Origin: a virus
DNA length: 29,586 nucleotides
Virus record (IMG/VR): IMGVR_UViG_3300032245_000955
Location: 1-29,586 of that record
Direction: 5' to 3' (one strand)
In this document: piece after piece, positions 1,216-8,824 of the stretch
Position numbering within the stretch: the first letter of the stretch is position 1
How the letters are laid out: each line of letters begins with the position of its first letter
Notes under the pieces: generated by a model
The model's input: the letters and a program-made list of their open reading frames with translations, nothing else
Databases searched by the model: none
Told to the model about the DNA's origin: nothing
Program-made: the position numbers and the translations under genes

Positions 1216-3174
1216 CTAGAATGGCTCATTTGTCACCTTTTTGCTGAATAAGCCATCGCTGGCTTCTTCGATTAAACCGTCATCTTTAGCCTGCTTCACG
1301 CGGGCCTTCGCTTGCCGTTCCTGCAACCGGGTGGCCTGTTGTACGAATGTAACAACTTGGGTGTACTTTGCCCCTTCAGGTAGCTTTGCCCAATCGATTG
1401 TGGATGCCCGACGGCCTACTGACTTCTCAGGCGCTCCCACCTCAATCCACGCCATGCCCTTGTCGGCATGCTTTAAGTGAACTAAAGGCTGCGTCTTACT
1501 GGCAATTAAATCGCTCGCAGTTACGCCAGAACGCAAGCCAGACCGCTTTCCGCGCTTGGTCACCTCTAGCTTATATGTGTACGTTCCTTGCTCATCCTGG
1601 CCACAAGGCGACAGCATTAAAACGGCTCTTGCCCAATTCGTCAGTTCGCTAGATCCAAAACCGCTATACGCCTTGTCGTGCCCTTGATAACCGCTGCCGT
1701 CTCGTGTTGGCTTTGGCGTATGGTGCATAAGCATCCAAGCAAATCCGCCAGATAGGGCGAGTGGGTTAAGCAAATTACGCAAAAAGCCACCGGCAGTCTC
1801 TTGGCTCGATAAGTCGCCACCGATAAACGCCAGCAACGGATCTACCCAGGCTAGGTCGGGTTTATGTTTTTCAGCTAGGCGACGCATCCTGTCCACGAAC
1901 CGTTCACCTGTGGACGTGCAGTCACGCACGATCACAATGTTTTGCTTCACCCGATCCAACTCCTCTGCGGTCAAATCCAGCGCCTTTAAGATGCCCTGCA
2001 ACGCCTCTGCCACGTCGCCTTCGTCGTTCTCCGCTTGCACGATTAGCGACTTTAACGGCTTGCCGTGTGGGCTAATGCCAAACAGATCACGGCCGGCCGC
2101 CCAAGTGATTGCGGCCTGTAAGCACAGCACGCTCTTACCAAGGCCACTGCTCCCAACCCACAACGCCGAACCTCCACGGCAGATCCACCGCTTGCCTAGC
2201 AGTTGCGTTATATCGGCATCCTCCTTAAAATTGACCAACTGTTCCCAGCTATAAGGCTCAGGAATATCCCCGTAGATTGTGCGCTCCTGCCATTCCATGT
2301 AAGTCAGCGTAGGTGCGCCACACTCGACTAACTCTTGCTGTAAGCCCGTGGCCGTCCTCATCGCACCTGGCAACCTCGACAACCGTCCTGCGTCCTTGTT
2401 GGCTGGATCGGGCTTACTGTGCTCTAGGTGCTTGTAAATGAAGTCCACCCGTTCAGCGAACTCCTTGGCATTGGCTGCCCGAATCTCAACCCATGCGTGC
2501 AGGCTGCGTGATCCGCTCTTTATGATGGACGACGTAGGCAGGCCACTGCGCTTAATAATCGCCCACTGTTCAGCCATAGTGCTTTCATCAAACTCAATTA
2601 GGCAGTGGCGGTACTTTACGATCGATTCCGCTTTCCGATTCTTTCCGTTGTTAGCGTTGATCGACACATACACGCCAACTGCATCGCCCTGCCACTCCTT
2701 CAGCCCGTCGGCCTTAAATAGCTCCAGCCACTCCTCCCGGCTTCGCGTCTCACCTGCACCGTCCGGCCGCTCGCGGTCGCCGTCCTTAATAGATCGGCAG
2801 ATATTGATCTGATCGCCTACGTCGAAACAAGTCGTCAGGAACTTATCGACTGGCCCGCTCTCCACGCTGATCGGCATCGGCGGCACTGGCAGATCCTCAC
2901 GCACGATCGCACCATTCTGATAGCCATATTTGGCTTTCGGCCTCCACGCCTCCCTGGCTGGCTTGCTGAACGCGGATCTAACCGCACTGACGGCCTCGTT
3001 CTGCGACAGCCCAACCTTGTAGGCCCACTCCTCGGCATTGGTTGTTGCGTCGAACTCCGTCAGCCCTTGGTCGCGCCATTGGCAGGCTAACTTAAAGAGC
3101 TGCGTGTTGCGCTCACCTTCAGCGGCCCCGTTGCGATGGATGGCTTCGATTGCGGGGGGTAGTGGTGCAATCAT
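1216..3174 (-). CDS. Primase-helicase (AEP primase + RepA-like ATPase)
   Basis: A 652-residue replication protein. Residues about 20-75 resemble a PriCT-like helical region. Residues about 165-275 carry archaeo-eukaryotic primase signatures: acidic LIEFDE at 192-197, SGSRSLHAWV at 220-229, and GRLSRLPGAMR at 263-273. Residues about 320-560 are a RepA/KaiC-like hexameric helicase: Walker A GSSGLGKS at 341-348, Walker B LAWVDP at 441-446, and the MLMHHTPK motif at 481-488 typical of RepA-type ATPases. A small C-terminal helical domain follows. The likely role is to prime and unwind phage DNA. The start ATG overlaps the upstream stop (ATGA), and an iteron-like array directly follows the stop. 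This is the strongest replication marker in the window. Confidence 0.9.
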   Translation of the reverse strand: MIAPLPPAIEAIHRNGAAEGERNTQLFKLACQWRDQGLTEFDATTNAEEWAYKVGLSQNEAVSAVRSAFSKPAREAWRPKAKYGYQNGAIVREDLPVPPMPISVESGPVDKFLTTCFDVGDQINICRSIKDGDRERPDGAGETRSREEWLELFKADGLKEWQGDAVGVYVSINANNGKNRKAESIVKYRHCLIEFDESTMAEQWAIIKRSGLPTSSIIKSGSRSLHAWVEIRAANAKEFAERVDFIYKHLEHSKPDPANKDAGRLSRLPGAMRTATGLQQELVECGAPTLTYMEWQERTIYGDIPEPYSWEQLVNFKEDADITQLLGKRWICRGGSALWVGSSGLGKSVLCLQAAITWAAGRDLFGISPHGKPLKSLIVQAENDEGDVAEALQGILKALDLTAEELDRVKQNIVIVRDCTSTGERFVDRMRRLAEKHKPDLAWVDPLLAFIGGDLSSQETAGGFLRNLLNPLALSGGFAWMLMHHTPKPTRDGSGYQGHDKAYSGFGSSELTNWARAVLMLSPCGQDEQGTYTYKLEVTKRGKRSGLRSGVTASDLIASKTQPLVHLKHADKGMAWIEVGAPEKSVGRRASTIDWAKLPEGAKYTQVVTFVQQATRLQERQAKARVKQAKDDGLIEEASDGLFSKKVTNEPF

Positions 3175-4178: not shown

Positions 4179-4327
4179 AGCCCGCTCCTAATGCGATCAA
4201 TCAGATCGTTCTCGCGTCCTTCGGCAGCCGCCAGCGCAGCCTTTGCCTCCGCCAACTCACGGGCCAGCGAGCGCACGCGGTTCAGCAACTGCTCGTGGGT
4301 GGATTGTTCGGGTAGGATTTCAATCAC
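4175..4327 (-). CDS. 50-residue coiled-coil protein, GTG start
   Basis: GTG at 4327 overlaps the last codons of the nuclease gene (GTGATTGA), and the TGA stop overlaps the ATG of the 3D-domain gene. The peptide has a regular coiled-coil pattern with leucines at heptad spacing (LLNRVRSLARELAEAKAALA, 14-33). Its phase and exact fit between neighbours support a real gene. No enzyme motif is seen. It may oligomerise or dock another early protein. Confidence 0.65.
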   Translation of the reverse strand: MIEILPEQSTHEQLLNRVRSLARELAEAKAALAAAEGRENDLIDRIRSGL

Positions 4328-5105
4328 AGCGCACCTCACGCGGGTCGTACTTCTTCAGCCAGCGCCAAACCTTGCAAATGGACGTGAATGCCTCAAACGC
4401 CTGAGCAACTTGCTCGGCCGTGTAGCGAATGTCCTGCAACTGGCCGGTGACTGGATCGATCAGAATGTTTCGGCAGGCCATTCCGTCGTCCGTGAATGCG
4501 TACGCATAGGCACTGAGCTGCAAAAGATCAGTTTCATAGCCAGATGCTTTTGAGACGCCCTTTGCGTCTTTCTTAAATTTCCTCGTTTTAAAATCGATAA
4601 CCTCCATCTCACCGTGAATCTGGGCGATCAAATCCACTCGGCCTGCGTAGCCTTCCGCCTCGTTGACTAGCACGGACTCGCTGGCGTGCACTTTAGTAAC
4701 GCAGCACTCCCGCCATTCCTTTAGGCCCGCATAGTGCTCCTCGTAGCCTTTAACCAGTTCACCCGGCTCCTGCCGATTGATAATCATTTCAGCAAGTGAA
4801 TGAATGTGAGTCCCGCGTAGTGCTGCCGCCTCCACTTCCTTTCTGCTGTCCAATACCACCCGCTTGGCAAAATCGGCCAGCGATTCACCATCGTTGCGCG
4901 GGAGCGAAAGAGCCGCAGCAATCGCCTGCTCCTCCTTCCAATTCATCAGCCCCTGCTTGCTGGGGCCAGCCGCTCCGAGGATGGTGGTCACGGACGGAAA
5001 CGCCCCTACCTTGCGAGCGGATCGCAAATCACCGTGACACGACTCACCCGACGCTAGGTAATAGTGCGACGACTCCGCCTTTGCTGTGGCAATGAGCGCA
5101 GCCAT
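4320..5105 (-). CDS. PD-(D/E)XK exonuclease, RecB/Cas4-like
   Basis: A 261-residue nuclease. The RGTHIH motif at 98-102 is the N-terminal His motif of RecB-type nucleases. YAGRVDLIA (153-161) carries the first acidic ligand, Asp158. VIDFKTRK (169-176) gives the DxK pair Asp171/Lys173. LLQLSAYAYAF (194-204) is the QxxxY motif. Together these are the full catalytic set for a Mg-dependent 5'-3' or end-processing exonuclease. Next to an OB-fold ssDNA-binding candidate it probably forms a phage recombination pair; no RecT/Erf annealing protein was recognised. ATG at 5105 overlaps the upstream stop (TAATG). Confidence 0.87.
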   Translation of the reverse strand: MAALIATAKAESSHYYLASGESCHGDLRSARKVGAFPSVTTILGAAGPSKQGLMNWKEEQAIAAALSLPRNDGESLADFAKRVVLDSRKEVEAAALRGTHIHSLAEMIINRQEPGELVKGYEEHYAGLKEWRECCVTKVHASESVLVNEAEGYAGRVDLIAQIHGEMEVIDFKTRKFKKDAKGVSKASGYETDLLQLSAYAYAFTDDGMACRNILIDPVTGQLQDIRYTAEQVAQAFEAFTSICKVWRWLKKYDPREVRCD

Positions 5106-6148: not shown

Positions 6149-6477
6149 TTTTTCTCCTTCATCGACAGGCGGAATGACTTGGCGGTCATCGCCACTGCTT
6201 CAGCCGTCAGGCACTTGGTTGTGAAACGCCAGATGCGCCAGCCCAGGTCGGCTGCTGCGCGATACTTTTCGCAATCTTTCACCATCCCCATCCCTCGCCC
6301 GTGACGGCCGCCAAACGGTAAGAACGCCCCACCGTCCAGCTCGATCGCACATCGGGCGGATTTACAGGCAAAGTCGAAACGCCATTTGCGGGTCGGGTGG
6401 AAAGTGTGCTCGGCCACTAGCTCCGGGCCGCCAGCCACAGTCCAAAGCACGATAAACTTTTTTGCCAGTGCGCTCAC
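6145..6477 (-). CDS. Vsr/DUF559-like endonuclease
   Basis: A 110-residue protein of the compact PD-(D/E)XK type. Glu23 in AEHTFHPTRKWRFDFA, Asp35 in the same block and Glu46 in CAIELDGG form the expected acidic core. RHGRGMGMVKDCEKY (58-72) and LGWRIWRF (78-85) are the remaining conserved blocks of the DUF559/Vsr-like phage nucleases. It probably cuts or processes phage or host DNA during replication or recombination. It may stand in for a Holliday-junction enzyme, since RusA or RuvC were not seen. Both ends overlap neighbouring genes by four bases. Confidence 0.75.
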   Translation of the reverse strand: MSALAKKFIVLWTVAGGPELVAEHTFHPTRKWRFDFACKSARCAIELDGGAFLPFGGRHGRGMGMVKDCEKYRAAADLGWRIWRFTTKCLTAEAVAMTAKSFRLSMKEKK

Positions 6478-6737
6478 GATTGCGCCCTCTTGAGCAGGCT
6501 TGCGACCACCTCTTGAATGCCGTCTAGGTCATTACGCAGTTTACGGTACTTGGTTTGCAGATCGATCAGAGCAGTCGTCTGCGATAGCTGTGCCGATCCG
6601 TAGGATTGCGAGACGGAGATCGGCAGAATGCCCTCTGCTTCGAGGTCGCGAACAGTAGCCGCAGGCGGATAGAACGCCCCGGCCACGCCGCCTTGGTTTT
6701 TAGGTGCGGGGGCACCGTTGTCCTTGGCGTAAATCAT
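6474..6737 (-). CDS. Hypothetical protein with helical C-terminus
   Basis: The protein has 87 residues: a Gly/Pro-rich N-terminal part (GAPAPKNQGGVAGAFYPPAA) and a C-terminal coiled-coil stretch (LIDLQTKYRKLRNDLDGIQE, 57-76). Its stop overlaps the nuclease ATG, and its start overlaps the stop of the membrane protein before it. No family is recognised. Confidence 0.55.
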   Translation of the reverse strand: MIYAKDNGAPAPKNQGGVAGAFYPPAATVRDLEAEGILPISVSQSYGSAQLSQTTALIDLQTKYRKLRNDLDGIQEVVASLLKRAQS

Positions 6738-6895
6738 CTGCCCTCCCTAAAGAATCGACGCACTTGATCGACTACCCACCCAAACACGAGCAGGGCCACA
6801 GTTAGACCGGCGATTCCAGAGCCTACAAACAAAGCCCAGCCGGTGATCAGCATGGATACCTGGGCGAGATCGCGCATGACTTCCCACGAAATCAT
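6734..6895 (-). CDS. 53-residue membrane protein
   Basis: The preferred start is ATG at 6895, which overlaps the upstream stop (ATGA); the frame stays open further upstream but that part covers the neighbouring gene. The peptide has one long or two short membrane helices (MLITGWALFVGSGIAG then LTVALLVFGWVV) and a basic end (RRFFREGR). The positive tail suggests a cytoplasmic C-terminus. The role is unknown; superinfection exclusion is a common job for early small membrane proteins but is not shown here. Confidence 0.6.
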   Translation of the reverse strand: MISWEVMRDLAQVSMLITGWALFVGSGIAGLTVALLVFGWVVDQVRRFFREGR

Positions 6896-7149
6896 TTGCT
6901 GGCCTCGTGCTGGGCGTGCCACATACGGCACACGGCGGGGTTAGGGTGATAAACGAACGCTTCTGGCGTTAAATCGTACCCGCCGCGCGAATTTAAATTT
7001 AGTTGTTGGTAGTGAGCCTTTTTAGGCTCAGTTATTACTGCCGTGTTACCGCTTCGGCGTAAGTCATTGTAGGGATAAGCATCGGACGGGGTGGGATTTG
7101 AACCCACGGTTCTATCTCCTTCTTTGATTTGATTGATTATGCTTTGCAT
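6892..7149 (-). CDS. Hypothetical protein whose gene spans attP
   Basis: An open frame of up to 85 residues, start ATG at 7149. Codons for RTVGSNPTPSD (13-23) are the tRNA-like attP core read in this frame. The C-terminal half (GGYDLTPEAFVYHPNPAVCR) looks protein-like and its stop overlaps the next gene in an ATGA, so translation through this end is likely. The true start is uncertain: no ribosome binding site is visible before 7149. If the phage integrates at this core, the first codons would be separated from the rest, so the gene would be altered in the lysogen. Confidence 0.45.
   Translation of the reverse strand: MQSIINQIKEGDRTVGSNPTPSDAYPYNDLRRSGNTAVITEPKKAHYQQLNLNSRGGYDLTPEAFVYHPNPAVCRMWHAQHEASK
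7013..7030. repeat. Perfect hairpin TGAGCCT-TTTT-AGGCTCA
   Basis: A 7-bp perfect stem with a 4-base loop within the early frame at 6892-7149, about 50 bases from the attP core on the early-operon side. It could be a structured element in the leader of the early operon. There is no following T-run, so a terminator is unlikely. Confidence 0.4.
7083..7107 (-). other. attP: Probable attP core (tRNA-Ser 3' end)
   Basis: Read on the minus strand, this is a complete T-arm (GTGGG-TTCAAAT-CCCAC) followed by the seven-base acceptor 3' strand CCCGTCC and discriminator G. No D-arm or anticodon arm lies upstream, so it is a tRNA 3' fragment, not a gene. The G discriminator and the GGACGGG acceptor partner fit tRNA-Ser. 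It lies 87 bases from the integrase start. Tyrosine integrases commonly use such tRNA 3' ends as attP cores, which restore the host tRNA on integration. Confidence 0.8.
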
Positions 7150-7193
7150 GGTTGCTGTGTTTTGTTGCGTTAAACTGAGTAAATGTTACCGTT

Positions 7194-8300
7194 ATGACCA
7201 TGGCGTATTCTTACCAGAAACGCGGCAGCCCTTGGTTCTTTATTCGTTTTAAAGACCCGACTGGAAAATGGCGTAGCAAAAGCACCCGCTACCGAATCGA
7301 CAACACCCTGCATCGAGCTAAGGCAACGGCCGAGGCCGCTCGACTTGGCGTTAATGAAAAGCAAAAAGATTGCGGCCACGATTGGGTTGACGATTTGATT
7401 GAAAATCACCCTGTTTCTGCTCTGACAAAAGTGTATTACAGGAATTGCTGGCGTCATCTTGCGCGATTTATTATCGAAAAGAAAATAACCCTGCAAGCGT
7501 TTTCTGCGGCTGATTGTGAAATTTATTTGAGATGGCGTCAAAGCCTTCCCCGCACGTCCGGCGGTAAAGCTGGTCGTAACCAAGCGTGCCAAGATTTGAA
7601 GATTCTTAAATGGATTCACAGGCAGGGCCGACTGCTGGGCAAGATGGATTCTGTCGCTCTTCTGGATTACCGAATTAAGAGGGGGCCGATCTCCCGCGTT
7701 AAACCCGTTTTTTCGGATAATGAGATTAAAATCACCCGGAAAGCCTTGGCCGTGGAAGGTGTGCCCGAATGGATGCGGATTAGCTTTGAGATCGCGTTGG
7801 CTACGGGCTGTCGCCTGCGTGAGACGCAGATCCCGCTCGACTGCGTGGATTTGAAGAATCGCATCCTTACGTTCCCCTGCCCCAAGGGTGGCACGGGCAA
7901 ATCCTTCAGCATCCCCATCCCGGCCGCCATCGAACCCATGCTGGCCAGAATGAAGGCCGAGGGTCGCAAGGTCACTTGCGAAGTCCCCCGGACTCGAGCT
8001 TCGCTTTGCTGGCGTCGCCTGCTCGATATTTGCGGGCTTAAACGTCATTGTTTTCATTCGCTTCGGGTAACCCGAGTGACGAGATTGCGGCTTTCAGGCT
8101 GTTCTCAATCTGTCGCCATGAGACTCGTGAATCACTCGTCGACTTTAGTGCACGAGTTGTATCAGCGGCACTGCGTAGACGATCTCCGCGATGCAGTGAA
8201 CTTAGGCCAGTCGTCCGTATCAGCCGCCAGCGATCAAAGTCAGACGGAATTACCTTACCCGCAATCAGCGGGAATCCAGGCATCGCCTGCATTTGCTTGA
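7194..8300 (+). CDS. int: Tyrosine recombinase, phage integrase
   Basis: A 368-residue integrase. Residues 4-35 (YSYQKRGSPWFFIRFKDPTG) form the N-terminal arm-binding domain and about 62-145 the SAM-like core-binding domain. The catalytic residues are all visible: Arg207 (ATGCRLRE), a Lys in the KGGTGK hairpin (231-236), His288/Arg291 (HSLR), His314 (VNHSS) and nucleophile Tyr323 (ELYQRH). It catalyses integration and, with an excisionase, excision. It is the only long plus-strand gene here; the start is ATG at 7194 or, equally possible, ATG at 7200. The C-terminal 45 residues past Tyr323 are unusual, and the last 263 bases overlap an excisionase-like gene in antisense. Confidence 0.93.
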   Translation: MTMAYSYQKRGSPWFFIRFKDPTGKWRSKSTRYRIDNTLHRAKATAEAARLGVNEKQKDCGHDWVDDLIENHPVSALTKVYYRNCWRHLARFIIEKKITLQAFSAADCEIYLRWRQSLPRTSGGKAGRNQACQDLKILKWIHRQGRLLGKMDSVALLDYRIKRGPISRVKPVFSDNEIKITRKALAVEGVPEWMRISFEIALATGCRLRETQIPLDCVDLKNRILTFPCPKGGTGKSFSIPIPAAIEPMLARMKAEGRKVTCEVPRTRASLCWRRLLDICGLKRHCFHSLRVTRVTRLRLSGCSQSVAMRLVNHSSTLVHELYQRHCVDDLRDAVNLGQSSVSAASDQSQTELPYPQSAGIQASPAFA

Positions 8301-8406
8301 TTCGGGTGTAGCCCAAGCCGTAAGCAGCGCCTAGTTGGCGAAGGGAAAGAGCTTGGTTCTTCTGGCGGAGTTTCATGGCAACAACGTTGAGACGCCCCAA
8401 GCTCAT
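8038..8406 (-). CDS. Excisionase-like HTH protein
   Basis: Up to 122 residues. Residues 20-61 (SLRQLGAAYGLGYTRIKQMQ, then GFPLIAGKVIPSDFDRW) form a MerR/Xis-like winged HTH: helix-turn-helix, then a G-K-V wing and a short helix. Such proteins bend DNA at att sites to direct excision. It starts six bases after the stop of the minus-strand RHH gene, so they share an operon. The C-terminal half lies antisense to the catalytic end of the integrase, including its Tyr323 codon, and may be less conserved. Convergent overlap of this length is unusual. An alternative start is ATG at 8376. Confidence 0.65.
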   Translation of the reverse strand: MSLGRLNVVAMKLRQKNQALSLRQLGAAYGLGYTRIKQMQAMPGFPLIAGKVIPSDFDRWRLIRTTGLSSLHRGDRLRSAADTTRALKSTSDSRVSWRQIENSLKAAISSLGLPEANENNDV

Positions 8407-8412
8407 AAGTAT

Positions 8413-8574
8413 CTAGCTTTGCTCTCCCGATGCTTTTGCAAGCAGTTGAGTGATGAGCTGAGAAAGCGAAATACGACGGGCAGCAGCCAGTTTTTGCGAT
8501 GCTTTTTTCACAGCAACGGGCAATACAATATTTGTCTTTTCTGCTTTTAAACCGCTGAGTGGACGACGAGGCAT
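8413..8574 (-). CDS. Ribbon-helix-helix protein, 53 residues
   Basis: ATG at 8574, stop TAG at 8413-8415. The peptide has the RHH layout: a short beta strand (KTNIVLPVAVKKA, 13-25) for DNA contact, a first helix (SQKLAAARR) and a second (SLSQLITQLLAKA, 36-48) after the turn. This is the CopG/Arc fold, which binds DNA as dimers. AAAGG lies just before the ATG. It is divergent from a second RHH gene, with TACGC half-sites between them, so mutual repression or autorepression is likely. It heads a short operon with the excisionase-like gene. Confidence 0.72.
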   Translation of the reverse strand: MPRRPLSGLKAEKTNIVLPVAVKKASQKLAAARRISLSQLITQLLAKASGEQS

Positions 8575-8668
8575 ACGCCTTTGCTACGCACACACGGCGT
8601 ATTAGCAACACTTTTCTTTTGGGCATTAACTTTTCTTTTTTAAACTTGAATGCGTATTTATTACGCAT
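8574..8668. promoter_or_regulatory. Shared operator region of the two RHH genes
   Basis: Five TACGC half-sites occur between the divergent starts: 8574-8578, 8585-8589, 8597-8601 (inverted), 8652-8656 (inverted) and 8662-8666. The outer pair near the plus gene is a perfect 7-bp inverted repeat, ATGCGTA-TTTAT-TACGCAT (8650-8668). Short, repeated half-sites are what RHH dimers bind, so these are likely operators. Confidence 0.6.
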
Positions 8669-8673
8669 ACAAT
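8646..8673 (+). promoter_or_regulatory. Candidate promoter, TTGAAT-16-TACAAT
   Basis: A -35-like TTGAAT (8646-8651) and a -10-like TACAAT (8668-8673) are 16 bases apart, and the inverted repeat at 8650-8668 fills the spacer, so a bound repressor would block polymerase. The ATG at 8681 is about seven bases past the -10 box, so the transcript would be almost or fully leaderless; CCTCCCT before the ATG is not a ribosome binding site. Confidence 0.5.
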
Positions 8674-8680
8674 CCTCCCT

Positions 8681-8824
8681 ATGAAAAAGGCGAAAACAAA
8701 CCTCACGATCGACCCAAAAGTTAAGCGTAACGGTGAGCGTCTTGCCAAAAAAAGTGGATTATCCCTTTCGGCATATATCACCACGCTGCTAGTCAAAGAG
8801 CTGGCCAAAGAAAATAAACGCTAA
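8681..8824 (+). CDS. Ribbon-helix-helix protein, 47 residues
   Basis: ATG at 8681, TAA at 8822-8824. It reads MKKAKTNLTIDPKVKRNGER and then GLSLSAYITTLLVKELAKE, a classic CopG/Arc layout: strand TNLTIDP, helix one (VKRNGERLAKKSG), helix two (SLSAYITTLLVKEL). It shares no strong identity with the divergent RHH gene but the same fold. The start is inferred from the fold, since the upstream sequence has no ribosome binding site and a candidate promoter ends only seven bases away. It is the only plus-strand gene besides the integrase, and the pair may form the lysis-lysogeny switch. It ends four bases into the convergent winged-helix gene. Confidence 0.75.
   Translation: MKKAKTNLTIDPKVKRNGERLAKKSGLSLSAYITTLLVKELAKENKR

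Follow-up and report, generated by a model that had tools for sequence, protein, structure and literature searches.

The attP core of the phage studied here lies in frame within ORF1, the first gene of a minus-strand array, and matches, base for base, the 3′ terminus of a host tRNA-Ser(CGA) gene. The window, i.e., the whole stretch of DNA analysed, is a 29,586-base IMG/VR virus record from an uncultured phage family, which is represented here by dozens of contigs from metagenomes. That the core sits inside an early open reading frame had been noticed in a reading of the sequence alone, and this observation is confirmed. The consequence that we propose is evenly balanced in our estimate: the attP of a temperate phage would be placed in the 5′ end of the first early gene, so that integration cuts off the start of ORF1 and lowers the expression of the early genes coupled to it.

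The minus-strand array is read as a putative early operon because an exonuclease-like gene and a primase/helicase-like gene lie further down (Table 1). A tyrosine recombinase gene adjoins attP on the other side. Its start lies at 7194 or, more likely, at 7200, i.e., 44 or 50 bases from the divergent ORF1 start, so that ORF1 and int are separated by at most 50 bases, and the core itself sits in ORF1, outside int. The spacer sequence GTAACATT is present in 71 of 72 loci. By eye, no Shine-Dalgarno sequence precedes ORF1 (7149) or int (7200), and both may be leaderless; such a sequence (GAAGGAG, about 6150-6161, minus strand) is seen at a small frame further along the array.

Table 1. Features of the window around the attP core and along the minus-strand array
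Feature	Position	Strand	Remarks
Primase/helicase-like gene, presumed early operon	1216..3174	-	AAA_25, phrog_2597
Exonuclease-like gene, presumed early operon	4320..5105	-	PDDEXK_1, phrog_298
ORF4, 110 aa	6145..6477	-	phrog_503, weak DUF559
ORF3, 87 aa, overlaps end of ORF2	6474..6737	-	no family match
ORF2, 53 aa, hydrophobic	6734..6895	-	ATG overlaps ORF1 stop (ATGA)
ORF1, 85 aa, ATG start, first gene of the array	6892..7149	-	start and frame kept in 74/74
attP core	7083..7110	-	16 of 17 fetched exact host places are tRNA-Ser(CGA) by ARAGORN
ORF1/int spacer, candidate divergent control region	7150..7199	.	conserved block at about 7165-7190; putative promoter
Tyrosine integrase (int)	7194..8300	+	PF00589, 27.5 bits (cut-off 27.1); phrog_1, E 1.3e-28
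Excisionase-like frame, antisense to int 3′ end	8038..8406	-	PGFP motif in open frame, 44/71 loci
Arc-like ribbon-helix-helix regulator	8681..8824	+	phrog_582 Arc-like repressor, E 4.9e-05; 60 loci

The core and the host tRNA genes behind it

The core CGGACGGGGTGGGATTTGAACCCACGG begins at position 7083. Read on the minus strand, 7110-7083 is ACC followed by GTGGGTTCAAATCCCACCCCGTCCG, without a mismatch to the host tRNA-Ser(CGA) 3′ end; GTGGGTTCAAATCCCACCCCGTCCG has the orientation of ORF1 and corresponds to the T arm, the acceptor strand and base 73 of the tRNA. The identity between phage and host (7082/7083-7110) covers 28 bp, or 29 bp where the host sequence goes on with A, and the host loci show ACC directly before the core, as does the phage. 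No complete tRNA was found in the window by ARAGORN. The search for host tRNA-Ser genes with a matching 25-bp end, recommended by the sequence-only reading, was successful: 20 host places were fetched (17 exact and 3 inexact), and tRNA-Ser(CGA) was recognised at all the exact places except one (L156), in which the tRNA is truncated by the contig start. The inexact places gave one tRNA-Ser(GGA) and two without a tRNA.

The candidate host group emerges from several searches. Alignment of Int against genome_contigs returned a sole relative, on a contig of Verrucomicrobia bacterium UBA3063 (L133; phylum Verrucomicrobiota). The 25-mer, with A or G at one position, is present exactly in 1 of 288 genomes drawn from Verrucomicrobiota, again UBA3063 and, within it, L133 itself. 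Among 62 genomes of the order, 17 carry it exactly (UBA3063, on the phage contig; G299; and 15 of G323-G342), and 54 carry it with at most two mismatches.

Relatives of Int were found in 76 viral loci, 63 of which have the Ser core. The remaining 13 comprise six with a different core at this position, three that lack the greater part of the integrase and four truncated by the end of their contig. The six alternative cores are tRNA-Met or tRNA-Pro ends and lie likewise in frame: L038, L042, L044, L045 and L069 carry GGGGGTTCAAATCCCTCCACTGCCA, while L050 carries GTGGGTTCAAATCCCACCGCTCCGA. Among the 62 genomes of the order, 19 contain an exact match to GGGGGTTCAAATCCCTCCACTGCCA when A or G is allowed at one position, and 15 of these have the A of the phage; GTGGGTTCAAATCCCACCGCTCCGA is matched exactly in 11. 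Sixteen matching host places were fetched, and those scanned by ARAGORN proved to be tRNA-Met(CAT) in 4/4 cases and tRNA-Pro(TGG) in 5/5. The bases before the core also follow the host type, with ACC for Ser and TC for Met and Pro. A swap of target causes no frameshift because the T arm, acceptor strand and base 73 amount to 25 nt in all three tRNAs. A quick Int tree of 69 rows, which carries a warning on the long rows L133 and L063, requires three target changes where the minimum possible is two, and its starred branches force two (Ser label). Such tRNA swaps inside a coding frame provide a natural record of integration-site change with the gene kept open. The genomes that match the Met and Pro cores are UBA3063 or belong to G323-G342, i.e., the same block as the Ser matches except G299, and from the genome lists we read all of them as one clade. 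The three cores thereby jointly indicate a host group for a phage family that would otherwise be an orphan and that appears to infect Verrucomicrobiota.

Integrated copies were searched for in the same 62 genomes, which are incomplete. With Int as the query, nine genomes matched and none held an integrated copy; the best match (55%) is L133, a contig of 3,377 bases that is itself phage-like, and the others range from 28 to 40%. The primase gave two remote matches and no integrated copy. This absence says little because the genomes are incomplete. On the phage side, no viral contig joins host tRNA-Ser(CGA) to the core, and the attP form is seen in every phage locus, all of them on metagenomic contigs, in which the core can be read on either side. 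As neither attL, attR nor an integrated copy was found, lysogeny of the phage family is itself presumed.

Two Int relatives were set aside. The Int relative on G323:C40 (40%) lies within a chain of islands with four tRNA-Gly ends and is a different element; four copies of one tRNA-Gly 3′ end occur there near 110070, 116180, 147271 and 162888 (L185-L189), the last within a complete tRNA-Gly(TCC). The relative in L177 (37%) looked like another element as well. The host regions behind tRNA-Ser(CGA) have features of their own. In L160 and L163-L167, repeat-like stretches follow the gene, with tRNA-end-like pieces (GAGGACGGGGT ... CCAAATCCCACC) that are repeated in some loci. A different sequence with GTGACAG repeats is found there in L156, L162, L168 and L172, and may represent a second integrative element that uses this tRNA gene.

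A coding frame kept open across the core

The core was examined in 75 loci, comprising the window, 73 viral contigs and L133. In all of them except L133 (74/75), the core is preceded at a distance of 14 or 16 codons by an ATG or GTG, and no stop intervenes. The start lies 16 codons upstream in 54 loci (49 ATG and 5 GTG) and 14 codons upstream in 20 (all ATG). A three-frame control was run on the 71 loci whose flanks are long enough. In 71/71, frame 0 has an ATG or GTG within 60 nt upstream and is open through the core; in frames 1 and 2, such a start occurs in 0/71 each. Many core loci are close relatives, so they are not independent events, and the 63 Ser-core loci plus the window amount to 59 distinct sequences. 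The frame claimed to hold the core is indeed open across it, although the span given for it, residues 13-23, becomes, by our count, residues 14-22 plus part of 23. It had also been stated that evidence against translation upstream of 7083 would speak against the whole reading; as far as sequence can tell, the upstream start kept in 74/74 loci argues for such translation.

At its other end, ORF1 meets ORF2. The junction in 68 relatives is ATGA in 54, GTGA in 11 and TAAT in 3, which makes 68/68 overlapping or abutting.

The selective pressure on ORF1 differs along its length. For the 32 distinct sequences of the main group, leaving out the L051-like group and other cores, pN/pS is 1.37 before the core and, after a core devoid of change, 0.34 in the next 16 codons and 0.16 in the C-terminal part. 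When the whole length class is taken (45 distinct sequences), the same four stretches give 0.98, 0.66, 0.46 and 0.36. From the pre-core value of 1.37 against 0.16 after the core, the pre-core peptide may drift, and the selected part is the one after the core. Start and frame are kept all the same, and ORF1 beyond the core is under purifying selection. Synonymous change in the post-core part of ORF1 (0.23-0.27) reaches roughly half the level found in ORF2, where the stretches give 0.35-0.64; this would be expected if attP arm sites overlapped ORF1.

ORF1 has no family match in Pfam, PHROGs or NCBIfam, and its AlphaFold2 model (17 rows; mean pLDDT 52.1, pTM 0.23) does not give a reliable fold. 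No cultured relative was found in the phages collection for Int (E up to 1e-5) or ORF1 (E up to 1); the primase matches 61 records there, every one below 60% identity. One 7.1-kb viral contig (L119:1) has its first base in ORF1 residue 24, some two bases after the identity with the tRNA ends, and looks like an assembly break at a repeat common to host DNA.

Two kinds of relatives bear on ORF1. Three contigs of 33.7-34.0 kb (3300032268_000444, 3300032304_001339 and 3300032324_000506) match Int only over residues 63-130. Compared to the window, they miss about 7035-7382 and 7573-8819, the second gap starting some 13 bases earlier in 3300032324_000506. The deletion removes most of int, the Arc-like gene, the spacer, the ORF1 start and the core, and what is left of ORF1, from about residue 40 onwards, continues in frame a reading frame on the antisense strand of int, which offers an ATG. 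We read these contigs as probable virulent derivatives in which the ORF1 C-terminus would still be needed and attP would not. The second case is L133 (Int 55%), in which the gene order is as in the window. There, a minus-strand frame of 73 aa (2019-2240) spans a Ser-type core in another reading frame than ORF1 and shows no clear sequence likeness to ORF1; at its end, it overlaps a short hydrophobic frame by ATGA. On the strength of these features, L133 would speak against a conserved ORF1 protein on that contig and for a conserved place of attP.

These data bear on a reading that we consider somewhat unlikely, though it has several observations on its side, namely that the overlap is incidental. 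In a compact genome, the core and an unconstrained ORF1 N-terminus would share DNA, the early genes would be served by a downstream promoter or late read-through under repressor control, and integration would merely cost or shorten ORF1. The freely drifting pre-core peptide fits this picture, as does the survival of integrase-less phages that have neither the spacer nor the start, a survival that also weighs against the proposed switch. Against it, the upstream start and the frame are kept throughout, and even L133 holds its core in the first frame of the array.

It is highly improbable that ORF1 is an excision factor whose gene is cut on integration so as to lock the prophage in. ORF1 is small and adjoins int and attP; however, the three integrase-less phages retain its C-terminus, no DNA-binding family matches it, and a separate frame at 8038-8406 on the minus strand is the one that we take to be excisionase-like. 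We rejected the excision-factor role on these grounds. The 8038-8406 frame has no family support for its label, its sole match being to a head scaffolding family (phrog_14114, E 0.0054). Just as little credit is given to an integration-dependent immunity of the BPs type, in which ORF1 would be a repressor with a prophage form different from the phage form. The position of attP in a gene beside int is reminiscent of such systems, but ORF1 loses its start side rather than a C-terminal tail, has no match to a repressor family and heads an array with exonuclease- and primase-like genes.

Modelled integration and early gene expression

Integration was modelled by a script that joins phage and host flanks, for 65 Ser loci with four hosts, five Met loci with three hosts and one Pro locus with three hosts. 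In the modelled attL between the window and L157, the one pair submitted to ARAGORN, an intact tRNA-Ser(CGA) is recovered, and the early operon comes to lie just behind it in the same direction, as the sequence-only reading had predicted. Its further claim that integration would separate ORF1 from its start is borne out, since the modelled attL is devoid of the native ORF1 start. In the models, the spacer and the start stay at attR; attL receives the operon together with the remainder of ORF1. In the ORF1 frame of attL, a stop is encountered 11 codons (Ser) or 14 codons (Met and Pro) before the core, and no ATG, GTG or TTG lies between this stop and the core, except for a TTG in 2 of 3 Pro hosts. 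The first core codon of the Ser and Pro types is GTG, a possible start for a shortened ORF1 after integration, which would suit an incidental overlap and speak against the proposed switch; in Met types, the next ORF1 start comes at codon 45 or later. An ATG right after base 73, considered as a leaderless start following tRNA processing, was discarded as out of the ORF1 frame and unconserved. At attR, the ORF1 start reads past the core start for 14 codons in all Ser models, 27-85 codons in Met and 13-41 codons in Pro.

These models suggest how the proposed switch could operate. In the circular phage, ORF1 would start upstream of the core and be read through it, and its translation would be coupled to that of ORF2, as the gene overlaps suggest. 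Integration into tRNA-Ser(CGA) would repair the tRNA with the phage core, and the same crossover would strand the start codon of ORF1, along with the spacer next to int, at the opposite prophage end, attR. In the prophage, phage-encoded ORF1 would be off, and the coupled early genes would lose their native promoter if it lies within 7150-7199, as we suppose. Read-through from the tRNA gene would be weak or untranslated, so leaving the operon silent, presumably to the benefit of the phage. Excision would rejoin ORF1 and the early genes with the start and the spacer. This reading is favoured by the match of the core to the host tRNA end, by the upstream start that is conserved in this frame only, by the selection on ORF1 past the core, by the three target types in frame at one position, by the near absence of in-frame starts ahead of the core in the modelled attL and by the ORF1/ORF2 junctions. 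L133, with its core in the first frame of the array, also favours it, as do the integrase-less phages, in which core, ORF1 start and spacer are lost along with int and the ORF1 C-terminus is nonetheless retained in frame. It is rather doubtful, yet worth stating, that lysogeny could be achieved by disconnection as such, with attP recombination alone turning the lytic operon off and excision turning it on, without a CI-type repressor, and with the 25-nt tRNA end permitting target swaps. If this were true, the recombination step itself would be the lysis-lysogeny switch, a phage counterpart of the Tn916 logic.

Promoter predictions give a mixed picture and do not decide whether integration would alter early gene expression, as the sequence-only reading had suggested; that reading is accordingly supported in part. 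The best promoter-like score upstream of the core in the window is 7 of 12, and promoter scans of the window are at chance level. Sigma-70-type scores of at least 9, counted in 72 loci without a shuffled control, were obtained upstream of the core in 31 and downstream, over a longer stretch, in 10. On the minus strand from 7083 to 4200, no promoter-like site was found at the tool threshold, which argues against the downstream promoter that an incidental overlap would call for. A search for regulators covered 19 window proteins, and the lack of a CI-type repressor would apply to these rather than to the whole record. Repressor control is possible because an Arc-like regulator is present, and the existence of this protein likewise favours an incidental overlap. 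An Arc-like operator (GCGTA...TACGC) in the int-ORF1 spacer was looked for and is absent, the two matches in the window lying elsewhere. A palindrome, GCGTATTTATTACGC, is found at 8652-8666 upstream of the Arc-like gene, where it overlaps a promoter-like site (8646-8673), and the same or a similar palindrome occurs in the relatives compared.

No terminator-like site was found when the minus strand was scanned from the core down to 4200. This weighs against the proposed switch, as read-through from the tRNA could instead turn the operon on. It is indeed conceivable, but quite unlikely, that the host tRNA promoter reads into the remainder of ORF1 and the early genes and ensures a low, growth-linked expression, in the manner of ICEKp1 int (PMC13023037). 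The co-directional position of the modelled operon directly behind the tRNA would allow it. Yet a lysogen would presumably suffer if its exonuclease- and primase-like genes were expressed, and Met types would have no ORF1 start before codon 45.

Comparison with known systems

Among the systems compared, the switch proposed here would work most like the excision-coupled expression of Tn916, with a gene split as in BPs-type phages. No precedent for a phage attP in frame in the first early gene came up in searches of an open-access library, outside which most of the literature lies.

Several other links between tRNA genes, att sites and expression are described, including tRNA-dependent lysogeny (PMC10865867) and KplE1 intS (PMC2951348). 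In ICEKp1, according to PMC13023037, int is driven by a host tRNA promoter when the element is integrated and by another promoter when it is excised. There, as modelled for the phage, element genes lie co-directionally behind the host tRNA and the host downstream region is displaced. However, ICEKp1 drives int behind the tRNA, whereas the phage int would be at the attR end on the opposite strand and the early operon behind the tRNA.

Other elements integrate within a coding frame. According to PMC8371274, archaeal suicidal integrases split their own gene on integration. The target in a coding frame and the split of a gene by integration would be common to both cases, but the split gene is the integrase in the archaeal elements, while the phage keeps int whole. 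In BPs, attP lies in the repressor gene (PMC4557955). The likeness to BPs and its relatives is that attP lies in an open frame and that the products of phage and prophage would differ (PMC4557955 and PMC8092301). The BPs repressor loses its 3′ end and gains activity, while the early ORF1 of the phage would lose its 5′ end.

The closest parallel is probably Tn916, the transfer operon of which is silent until circularization joins it to Porf7, according to PMC11658703, which cites Celli and Trieu-Cuot 1998. As in Tn916, integration of the phage would part an operon from its presumed promoter and circularization would rejoin them. Unlike the phage, Tn916 is conjugative, and it possesses an antiterminator as well as a terminator that insulates it. 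In the phage, the split would fall inside a coding frame, and the scan down to 4200 showed no terminator-like site behind the core.
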